NCBI RefSeq assembly: GCF_030063475.1
Contig: NZ_JASIRT010000010.1
Span: 62,001-126,000 of the forward strand
Reading direction: 5' to 3'
Origin: Roseomonas sp. E05
GTDB lineage: Bacteria; Pseudomonadota; Alphaproteobacteria; Acetobacterales; Acetobacteraceae
Length of the DNA: 64,000 bases
Shown: positions 42,552 through 45,150 of the stretch, in pieces
Numbering within the stretch: the stretch's first letter is position 1
Layout of the letters: each line of letters opens with the position of its first letter
The notes under the pieces: model-generated
What the model was told of the DNA's origin: nothing
The model's input: the letters and a program-made list of their open reading frames with translations, nothing else
Databases searched by the model: none
Position numbers and translations under genes: made by a program

Positions 42552-42974
42552 TCAGCCGATCTGGTTGGTCTGCAGGAAAAGCGCCTGCGAAAGCGCTTCA
42601 TAGAAACGCTGGAACGGCGCCGGGTCGGAGAGCTCATGCTGGTTGAGCTGGCCCGAGGCGCGGACGATCGTCCTGCCCGCCTCGCCCGGCCGGACCGTGA
42701 TGGTGAGGCGCACGAGCCCTTCGCCAAAGCGCGTGGCCGACACGGTGCCGAGCACAGGGTCGGCCCGGTCCACCACGAAGCCGAGGTCCTGGAGCGCAGC
42801 AAGAACGCCCTGGAACACCTTCGGGCAGTCGGCTGTGTCGAACATGCGGGTCGAGATCGCACGCTGCGCTGCCTGGGTGTTCGTCATCGCCAGGACCTGC
42901 TGTCGGCTGTCCGTCTGGCAGGCGCCGAGCAAAGGTATCAGCGTGAGGAGCGCAACAAAAGCCGGGCGATGCAT
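42552..42974 (-). CDS. Lipoprotein of the LQDLGF paralogue set (copy E)
   Basis: 140 aa. The signal peptide ends in a lipobox, LLGAC, with Cys at residue 19, so it is predicted to be lipidated and exported. The conserved core reads ALQDLGFVVDRADPVLGTVS around residues 61-80, then a beta-rich stretch and a PAPFQRFYEALSQALFLQ tail. The same pattern recurs in the products of 42977, 43854 and 44403. It is the last of five coupled genes, 2 bases after its neighbour. Function unknown; I know of no characterised homologue. Confidence 0.75.
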   Translation of the reverse strand: MHRPAFVALLTLIPLLGACQTDSRQQVLAMTNTQAAQRAISTRMFDTADCPKVFQGVLAALQDLGFVVDRADPVLGTVSATRFGEGLVRLTITVRPGEAGRTIVRASGQLNQHELSDPAPFQRFYEALSQALFLQTNQIG

Positions 42975-42976
42975 CG

Positions 42977-43438
42977 TCAGATCTCGTGGGCGGTCAGAAA
43001 GGCAGATTGGGCGACGCGCTCGAAAAAGCCCTGGTAGAGCGCCGCATCATCCAGCGTCTCGCCCAGGGCGAGCATCGCGCCGGGCCGGGCCACGCTGCGT
43101 TGGAACGTCGCCCGGACCAACGTGCCGGCCTGTCCGGGAAGGGAGCGGACGGAAACCTGCGCCCGAACTCGCGCGCCGGCCAGCTTCGAGCCCACGACCA
43201 GGCCCGTGGCCGCCTGGCTTTCCTCGATGGTGAAGCCGAGATCCTGCAAGGCGCCGATGACGGACTGCAGCATCAGCGCCTGATCGCCGGTCTCGAAACG
43301 CCGCGATTGCCGCGACCGGGCCGCCGCCGCCGAGGAGGCCGGGGCCAGGGCGGCCGCCTGCTGCTCGGCCGTCGGCGCGCAGGCGCCCGCCGCGGCGGAA
43401 AGCGCCGCCAGGCCCAGAACCGCCCTGCGCCGATGCAT
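42977..43438 (-). CDS. Lipoprotein of the LQDLGF paralogue set (copy D)
   Basis: 153 aa. The N-terminus HRRRAVLGLAALSAAAGAC gives a lipobox with Cys at residue 20, followed by an Ala-rich linker. The core ALQDLGFTIEESQAATGLVV is near residues 64-83, then GSK, and the tail is ALYQGFFERVAQSAFL. It shares the core with three neighbours, most closely with copy A (44403), which has the same LQDLGFTIEES run. Its start overlaps the stop of the BamE-like gene by one base (TGATG). Unknown function. Confidence 0.75.
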   Translation of the reverse strand: MHRRRAVLGLAALSAAAGACAPTAEQQAAALAPASSAAAARSRQSRRFETGDQALMLQSVIGALQDLGFTIEESQAATGLVVGSKLAGARVRAQVSVRSLPGQAGTLVRATFQRSVARPGAMLALGETLDDAALYQGFFERVAQSAFLTAHEI

Positions 43439-43857
43439 CAGAAGGAGGAGGTCCGGTAGGAGAAGTCCCGCACGCGGCCGTTCTCATCGAAGCGGATGAT
43501 GACGGTCAGCGAGCGCTGCGAGGTCTGCGCGGCGCCCGAACGGCCGCTCGCGCCCGCGAGGAAGAGCGCGTTCACCCCGCCGGACGAGCTGGAATAAACC
43601 TGCTCGGTGGCGATCCGGTCATAGACCCAGGTCTCGCGCCGATGCTCGTCGCCGGTGACGATGTTGGGCGAGCCGAGGACCGCAGCGACCTCGGCGCCGC
43701 TCATCCCCTGGCGGATCTCGCGCTGCACGGTCCCCACGGTCAGGCGGTCGCCGGCGCCTCGGCCGGCGGCGACCTCGCGGGCATGCTCGCTGGCCGGCGT
43801 GCACGCCGCCAGCACGGTGGCCGCGGCGAGCGGCAGGAGGCGGTGGAGGAGGCTCAT
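43438..43857 (-). CDS. BamE/SmpA-OmlA-like lipoprotein
   Basis: 139 aa. Lipobox VLAAC with Cys near residue 19. The BamE-like motif IRQGMSGAEVAAVLGSPNIV is near residues 48-67, then ETWVYDR, and a final strand pair LTVIIRFDENGRVRDFSY. BamE itself is a part of the outer membrane beta-barrel assembly machine. Here the domain sits inside a five-gene lipoprotein operon, and its sequence has a Ser/Gly-rich insert (YSSSSGG). It is coupled to both neighbours (4-base overlap upstream, 1-base downstream). A role in envelope assembly is inference; this is probably not the housekeeping bamE. Confidence 0.78.
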   Translation of the reverse strand: MSLLHRLLPLAAATVLAACTPASEHAREVAAGRGAGDRLTVGTVQREIRQGMSGAEVAAVLGSPNIVTGDEHRRETWVYDRIATEQVYSSSSGGVNALFLAGASGRSGAAQTSQRSLTVIIRFDENGRVRDFSYRTSSF

Positions 43858-44399
43858 TGCAGTTGCATTCCAGCAGGGGACGTGACGGTTGGGGCCGCGG
43901 CGCGGGTGGCGGCGGCCTCGCGCTCCCGGGCGGTGTTCAACTCAGCCACGGGGCGCGGCGCCTCGGGCAGCGGCGCATCCGCGGGGAGTGCCGCCACCGT
44001 GCGGTTCAGCGTGGCCTGAAGCGGCTCGAAGAAGTCGCGCTGATAGAATTCCGGACTGTCCACCTGTGCCTCGCGGGTGAGGGCGACGATGGAGGCATTG
44101 GCGCGGACCGTGCTCTCAGCCGGACCGCGCGGCTGCACGACCACCGCCATCCGCAGACTTGTGCGCCGTGTGGCGGACACGGTGCGCGCCTCCGGTTCCA
44201 CGCGCGTGATCCGGTATCCCAGGTCATGGAGGGTTGCGATCACGCCGCGCATCGTGGCGTCGGCGTCGGCCGGCACCGTGCGCGCCTGCATCGCACGCAG
44301 CTCGACGGCGCTCTTCTGGCTGGGGACGAACTGCGTTCCGGGCGTGGCGCAGGCCGCCACCGGCCCCAGGAGGGCAAGGGCAAGAAGAACTTGGCGCAT
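43854..44399 (-). CDS. Lipoprotein of the LQDLGF paralogue set (copy B)
   Basis: 181 aa. Lipobox PVAAC with Cys near residue 17. The core is the most diverged of the set: TLHDLGYRITRVEPEARTVS around residues 56-75, then ATRR. The SPEFYQRDFFEPLQATLN segment matches the tail of its paralogues, but an extra 45-residue Ala/Pro-rich extension follows. It overlaps the BamE-like gene by four bases and starts 3 bases after copy A. Unknown function. Confidence 0.72.
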   Translation of the reverse strand: MRQVLLALALLGPVAACATPGTQFVPSQKSAVELRAMQARTVPADADATMRGVIATLHDLGYRITRVEPEARTVSATRRTSLRMAVVVQPRGPAESTVRANASIVALTREAQVDSPEFYQRDFFEPLQATLNRTVAALPADAPLPEAPRPVAELNTAREREAAATRAAAPTVTSPAGMQLQ

Positions 44400-44402
44400 G
44401 GT

Positions 44403-44951
44403 TCAGGTCCGCTGTGCGAGGCCCGCGCGGACCTTTTCAAAAAAGCCGCTGGAGAACTCGGGCGCGTTGAGTTCCTCAACGCGGCTGAGGCCCCGGTTGT
44501 TCGTCACGATGCGCTCGAAGGAGACCCGCAGGCTGGTCTCCTGGGTGCTCACCTGCCGCGTGGAGAGGGTCGCGCGGATCACCTGATCGGTGTCCCAGAC
44601 CGGGTTGTACTGCGCGCCGAGCACGGCGAAGGCCACCATCAGCGCGACCTGGCCGACCACCTGTGGCGTCTCGACGGCATCCCGGTCCTTGGAGCCTGCG
44701 AGGACGCCAAAGCGCGGCGCGCTTTCCTCGATTGTGAAGCCGAGATCCTGCAGGACCTGGGTGGCCTCGACGAGAAGACGTTCCTCGGAGGTCGCCGGGA
44801 AGAGCGTGGTCTGGCGCTCGCGGATCTCCGCCGCGTCGGGGCGAGGGGCGCCGACCTGCAAGGCCGTCCGGTTTGCCCAGTCGGGGTCCTGGCAACCAGC
44901 CGCCAGGGCCGCGAGGGGAAGAAGCAGCATCACTTGGCGCAGTACACGCAC
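44403..44951 (-). CDS. Lipoprotein of the LQDLGF paralogue set (copy A), first gene of the operon
   Basis: 182 aa from a GTG at 44951, chosen because it gives a charged start (VRVLRQV) before the hydrophobic stretch and lipobox LAAGC. An ATG at 44930 would leave a signal without charge, and a longer frame begins at a TTG at 44999. The core VLQDLGFTIEESAPRFGVLA is near residues 70-90, then GSKDRDA, a hydrophobic VALMVAFAVLGA stretch, and a PEFSSGFFEKV tail. This is the form I have most often seen as an unnamed lipoprotein in proteobacteria. Confidence 0.72.
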   Translation of the reverse strand: MRVLRQVMLLLPLAALAAGCQDPDWANRTALQVGAPRPDAAEIRERQTTLFPATSEERLLVEATQVLQDLGFTIEESAPRFGVLAGSKDRDAVETPQVVGQVALMVAFAVLGAQYNPVWDTDQVIRATLSTRQVSTQETSLRVSFERIVTNNRGLSRVEELNAPEFSSGFFEKVRAGLAQRT

Positions 44952-45112: not shown

Positions 45113-45150
45113 CGCGGAGCAAGGGCTGAGGCCTCAGCCCTTGCTCCGCG
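45113..45150. repeat. Perfect 38-bp palindrome
   Basis: CGCGGAGCAAGGGCTGAGG followed directly by its exact reverse complement, with no loop. It lies in the 293-base gap between the lipoprotein operon and the small gene at 45245. It could extrude as a cruciform, terminate the upstream small gene, or be a binding site. No second copy was noticed in the window. Confidence 0.75.

Follow-up and report, generated by a model that had tools for sequence, protein, structure and literature searches.

The minus strand of Roseomonas sp. E05 carries, between positions 42552 and 44951 of the window (the whole 64,000-nucleotide stretch of DNA analysed here), an operon of five lipoprotein genes in which one BamE-like gene (B) is flanked on either side by a pair of genes of two related types, LipX (X) and LipY (Y), giving the order X-Y-B-X-Y. 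The operon defines LipX/LipY as an unannotated protein family, which occurs in several proteobacterial classes and has a remote link to BamC. Our preferred reading, to which we give a probability of roughly 0.45, is that the products would form a self-contained outer-membrane lipoprotein set with BamC-type and BamE-type parts, acting as an optional helper of outer-membrane assembly or of the barrier.

The five genes, with coordinates that include the stop codon, are all on the minus strand: g1 (44403-44951; 182 aa, GTG start) encodes a LipX-type helix-grip lipoprotein with a hydrophobic insert, g2 (43854-44399; 181 aa) a LipY-type lipoprotein whose C-terminal tail is of low complexity, g3B (43438-43857; 139 aa) the BamE-like lipoprotein, g4 (42977-43438; 153 aa) a second LipX copy that has lost the insert, and g5 (42552-42974; 140 aa) a second LipY copy. 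From g1 to g5, the junctions are a 3-base gap, a 4-base ATGA overlap, a 1-base overlap and a 2-base gap, as anticipated by a preliminary description of this DNA, which spoke of five minus-strand genes overlapping or lying 2-3 bases apart. Such tight coupling is suggestive of the hetero-oligomer proposed in that description, whose subunits would need fixed ratios. A lipobox had also been ascribed to every product, and all five indeed have a signal peptide followed by a lipid-attachment Cys, with a slightly atypical lipobox in g4 (A-G-A at -3 to -1). The rule by which an Asp next to the lipidated Cys governs sorting derives from enterobacteria; none of the homologues inspected has an Asp directly after this Cys, which is suggestive of outer-membrane sorting of the five products.

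Between the operon and the upstream gene lies a perfect 28-base palindrome (window 45118-45145; AGCAAGGGCTGAGGCCTCAGCCCTTGCT), present as a single copy in the window where zero would be expected by chance. It could be either a terminator or an operator. Rfam matches near it were far under the gathering scores, no sigma-70-like site was found upstream of g1, and no conserved promoter motif was seen 5' of g1 in 13 loci.

The products of g1, g2, g4 and g5 had been proposed to be four diverged paralogues, and their homology goes beyond chance in the own-genome search, by phmmer and with the family profile. When g5 was searched against its own genome, g4 (E 2.4e-14) and g2 (1.4e-9) were retrieved while g1 gave only 0.48; g1 is connected to the family through g4 (phmmer, 3e-11). 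The family profile detects all four at 5e-31 to 2e-47, g5 being the most conserved (mean column identity 75%). Regarding the core motif proposed earlier, L[QH]DLG[FY]x[IV] proved exact, and the strand V-x-[AG]-[ST]-[KR] applies exactly to g2, g4 and g5 but not to g1, which has L-A-G-S-K. Neither Pfam, NCBIfam, PADLOC nor PHROGs held a family naming LipX or LipY beyond chance or signal-peptide matches, and a PDB sequence search with the four paralogues gave no match. A phage origin of the module was considered and rejected, LipX having no match in phage records.

Elsewhere in the same genome there is a fifth, N-terminally degraded LipY copy (G000:C27:30148-30471; L054 8146-8457), which shares 54% identity with Azospirillum LipY across 103 residues. 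It has neither a LipX nor a BamE-like gene as neighbour and is apparently what remains of a further module copy.

The AlphaFold2 model of g1 (46 relatives; mean pLDDT 91.4) consists of a strand, a helix, five strands and a helix, with an extra hydrophobic helix between two strands (residues 95-110; codons 44622-44669, minus strand). The best 15-residue hydropathy reaches 2.29 in this insert, compared to 0.6-1.7 in g2, g4 and g5, from which the helix is absent. A membrane beta-hairpin was also considered for the LipX insert and was rejected, the model showing a helix. Given that the four paralogues are homologous, all are predicted to be helix-grip lipoproteins of one fold, g1 from its model and g2, g4 and g5 by homology; the unrelated folds that the preliminary description had named as speaking against its proposal did not appear.

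The similarity of this fold to BamC has to be read with some care. In a Foldseek search of the g1 model against the PDB, ranks 1-11 were all BamC (best E 5.8e-5). The VIA comparison gave Flpp3 first (Z 11.3), the BamC N-domain at Z 9.1, and START, Bet v1 and KA1 domains also at Z 7-9. The helix-grip fold is common, and since unrelated helix-grip proteins also score Z 7-9, the fold alone is no proof of kinship with BamC. At the sequence level, the mature-domain family profile matched the first domain of BamC with 87.5% probability; against whole BamC, 100 column-shuffled decoys reached at most 0.4% and the BamE-like family 0.1%, and the profile itself reached 50% when three single-domain bridging relatives were left out. 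These three (L108, L109 and L111) are BamC-family lipoproteins from one proteobacterial family (f41) and have a BamC-like N-terminal segment together with an insert at the position of LipX's own. They possibly bridge BamC and LipX/LipY, and are the clearest sequence link between the two (L111, E 2e-8 among 14 sequences searched). The BamC Pfam model (PF06804) had no match above its cut-off among the window proteins, its best value among 32 relatives was 0.11, and a scan of the whole genome with it found no BamC.

The same structural matches lend themselves to a possible, if doubtful, alternative, namely that the products form a lipoprotein complex with no relation to BAM that serves in envelope stress or lipid handling; its cavity-bearing helix-grip domains would bind lipids or small hydrophobic compounds at the outer membrane. 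Flpp3, the top VIA match ahead of the START and Bet v1 folds, has been likened to Bet v1 and reported to enclose a hydrophobic cavity (PMC4688374); hydrophobic inserts are present in both LipX and the BamE-like protein, and no bam genes lie beside the locus. However, Foldseek puts BamC first, the sequence profile favours the first domain of BamC, and lipid handling would leave the pairing with a BamE-type subunit unexplained.

That the fifth gene is BamE-like, as previously claimed, is borne out by the Pfam BamE match of g3B (4.5e-6), which for the whole protein reaches 26.8 bits, over the curated cut-off of 23.2. In the genome-wide scan, where part of the BamE domain was matched, g3B scored 20.8 bits versus 67.4 bits for another BamE gene of the same genome (G000:C14), and a canonical BamE gene separate from the module was present in 19/19 carriers tested. 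We therefore rejected g3B as the canonical BamE of this genome. In the g3B model (mean pLDDT 69.8), the core resembles both BamE and the type VI secretion system (T6SS) immunity protein BtiO, the latter being the best Foldseek match. Between two BamE strands lies a Gly-rich hydrophobic insertion (residues 91-108; codons 43534-43587, minus strand), which is unstructured in the model (pLDDT <50) and varies in length among homologues.

A search with g4 and then with the LipX profile revealed, outside the bacterial family, a compact trio of BamE-like, LipX and LipY genes in the same direction (B-X-Y). Its carriers are Azospirillum brasilense plasmids, the Acinetobacter baumannii plasmid p4E072658, further alphaproteobacteria, gammaproteobacteria and members of another class. 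Among the gammaproteobacteria (the class of G066, so identified from its strong BamC match), 8 of 323 genomes matched and five have the trio; the remaining matches are an X-Y pair on a short contig (L137) and reduced forms (L138 and L089). Two-gene forms, with a BamE-like gene and one helix-grip lipoprotein gene, were found at six loci (L053, L077, L078, L080, L088 and L138). The best reading of this distribution is that the module has spread horizontally, moving between proteobacteria.

Some of these loci deserve mention in their own right. The trio of the A. baumannii plasmid (CP061710.1; L055:4892-6277) sits on a plasmid of 8 kb, with all three genes annotated as hypothetical, close to a SulP transporter gene and a toxin-antitoxin pair of the RelE/ParE type. 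In an AT-rich 2.0-Mb member of the family (L052:7569-10458), the BamE-like gene is surrounded by five helix-grip paralogues. Two of these lie on the opposite strand, and a signal peptide without a clear lipobox is seen in two of the five. At L051:6881-7786, LipY is fused to an extra C-terminal domain of ~150 residues that, as judged by eye, resembles NTF2/SnoaL.

At one two-gene locus (L053:7658-8429), the BamE-like gene and its partner, a shortened gene for a helix-grip lipoprotein, adjoin genes that by eye resemble those of F-type conjugation. On this basis the products could serve a secretion or conjugation machine as accessory lipoproteins, an explanation we regard as very improbable: this is a single case, and no secretion genes recur at the other trio loci.

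Within the operon, g3B-g4-g5 has the composition of the B-X-Y trio, leaving g1-g2 as an extra X-Y pair. In a tree whose resolution is limited by its 143 columns, g1 and g4 fall with LipX, and g2 and g5 with LipY. The g4 clade has a support of 100/99 and its placement near the alphaproteobacterial trio LipX a modest 83/93, while g5 is placed among the trio LipY proteins with 97/87. The gene at the g4 position of L081 encodes 184 aa and has LipX as its best match, in line with a later loss of the insert in the other g4 copies. The operon is most simply read as a trio to which a second X-Y pair was added on the upstream side; enlargement of the three-gene module to five genes through duplication of its LipX-LipY pair within Acetobacteraceae is supported. 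The tandem duplication suggested in the preliminary description thus holds as far as duplication goes, but not as one gene copied four times, the tree fitting a pre-existing X-Y pair doubled around the BamE-like gene.

The five-gene order is found well outside this strain, and the possibility raised earlier that it is confined to it did not materialise. The same order with all genes intact was found in 11 further loci (L006-L012 and L014-L017); in L018 g1 is split by a stop codon, and L013 is interrupted by a contig end. The carriers are mostly Roseomonas-like Acetobacteraceae/Roseomonadaceae (Falsiroseomonas, Siccirubricoccus, Paracraurococcus, Rubritepida, Roseomonas and metagenome bins), and the order also occurs in six further genomes of the family. 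Overall, the operon was present in 10/150 family genomes and in 0/3 others of the same genus, and this patchy presence indicates that it is dispensable for most relatives. Flanking genes are common only to the Falsiroseomonas-like loci L006, L008 and L010, and partly to L085 and L086, so the operon occupies different sites. No neighbour gene recurs across the module's loci, suggesting that no further dedicated gene is required by the module. The sole recurrent "flank" was rejected, as it was the operon itself read in an antisense frame.

Between close relatives, dN/dS was about 0.09-0.12 for g1, 0.09-0.14 for g2, 0.09-0.10 for g3B, 0.16-0.26 for g4 and 0.08-0.11 for g5. These values of about 0.08-0.26 indicate purifying selection. 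The operon has been lost in a relative, Pseudoroseomonas vastitatis, which has a g5 remnant (L019:5914-6192) 83% identical to the window's g5 over the last 64 residues; the other operon genes are absent there, and a SulP-transporter-like gene, such as that seen on the A. baumannii plasmid, lies nearby.

These data also bear on whether the genes form an immunity cluster, whose lipoproteins would neutralise competitors' toxins delivered to the periplasm or the outer membrane. Among the immunity proteins of Lipocone toxins, BamE-like ones are the most widespread (PMC12419801), and this would agree with BtiO as the best Foldseek match of g3B and with the patchy, plasmid-borne distribution. We nevertheless consider it improbable, as no toxin or other neighbour recurs, strong purifying selection and a fixed gene order contrast with the fast diversification usual for immunity genes, and joint retention of all five subunits would be unexpected.

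A single complex is most likely in view of the conserved gene order, the tight coupling, the joint retention of the genes and the complementary BAM-type folds. According to our preferred reading of an optional helper set, the five products would assemble at the outer membrane into one lipoprotein complex of one BamE-like subunit and two LipX-LipY pairs. Each LipX-LipY pair would be a split equivalent of the two helix-grip domains of BamC, and the BamE-like subunit, which bears a hydrophobic loop, may be the membrane-proximal element. Such a complex might help or safeguard the assembly of outer-membrane proteins or the barrier function; it would be an optional addition and not a core BAM subunit. 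A stronger proposal, which we hold to be rather unlikely, is that of a mobile second set of BAM-type lipoproteins, made of BamC and BamE paralogues, which would remodel BAM or form a separate outer-membrane assembly complex, also where BamC is reportedly absent, with the five-subunit version in Acetobacteraceae. BamC is the least understood of the BAM lipoproteins. A conserved operon that combines BamC-type and BamE-type lipoproteins, travels on plasmids and leaves a separate canonical BamE in place would offer a defined, removable genetic unit with which to probe helix-grip lipoproteins at the outer membrane.

Among known systems, the closest are BamC and BamE, both lipoproteins of BAM (PMC13067283). 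In the open-access literature we found no paper on a trio of BamC-like and BamE-like proteins or on a system of this composition; most subscription journals lay outside this search. LipX and LipY resemble BamC (NlpB, PF06804) as lipoproteins with helix-grip domains, by the top Foldseek match and by the remote profile similarity to its first domain. They differ in having one domain per chain, encoded by adjacent separate genes, where BamC has two in tandem, and in having no Pfam match over the cut-off. In BamC, an N-terminal lasso mediates the binding to BamD (PMC13067283); LipX and LipY have none, only ~27 partly helical residues separating the lipidated Cys from the first strand in g1. Moreover, the module occurs in alphaproteobacteria, from which BamC was reported missing (PMC3359395). 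Given that two trio-bearing gammaproteobacteria also have a full-length BamC, the trio does not simply replace it.

With BamE (SmpA/OmlA, PF04355) and OsmE, g3B shares the BamE domain and the motif GMSGAEV..LGSPN. Its match is much weaker than that of the genome's own BamE, it has the Gly-rich hydrophobic insertion, and it lies in another operon, canonical BamE coexisting with it. Flpp3 (DUF3568, Francisella) is likewise a single helix-grip lipoprotein, yet its Pfam family (PF12092) gave no significant match, just E 0.12 in 1 of 32 relatives. Finally, BamF is a lineage-specific alphaproteobacterial BAM lipoprotein that is said to replace BamC; its presence was reported for every alphaproteobacterium examined, and it was predicted to be without helix-grip domains (PMC3359395). 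The module, in contrast, is patchy in its presence and has predicted helix-grip domains. In view of the separate BamE, the full BamC in two trio carriers and the missing lasso, the operon proteins are neither BamC nor BamE, though they may conceivably have a role near BAM.
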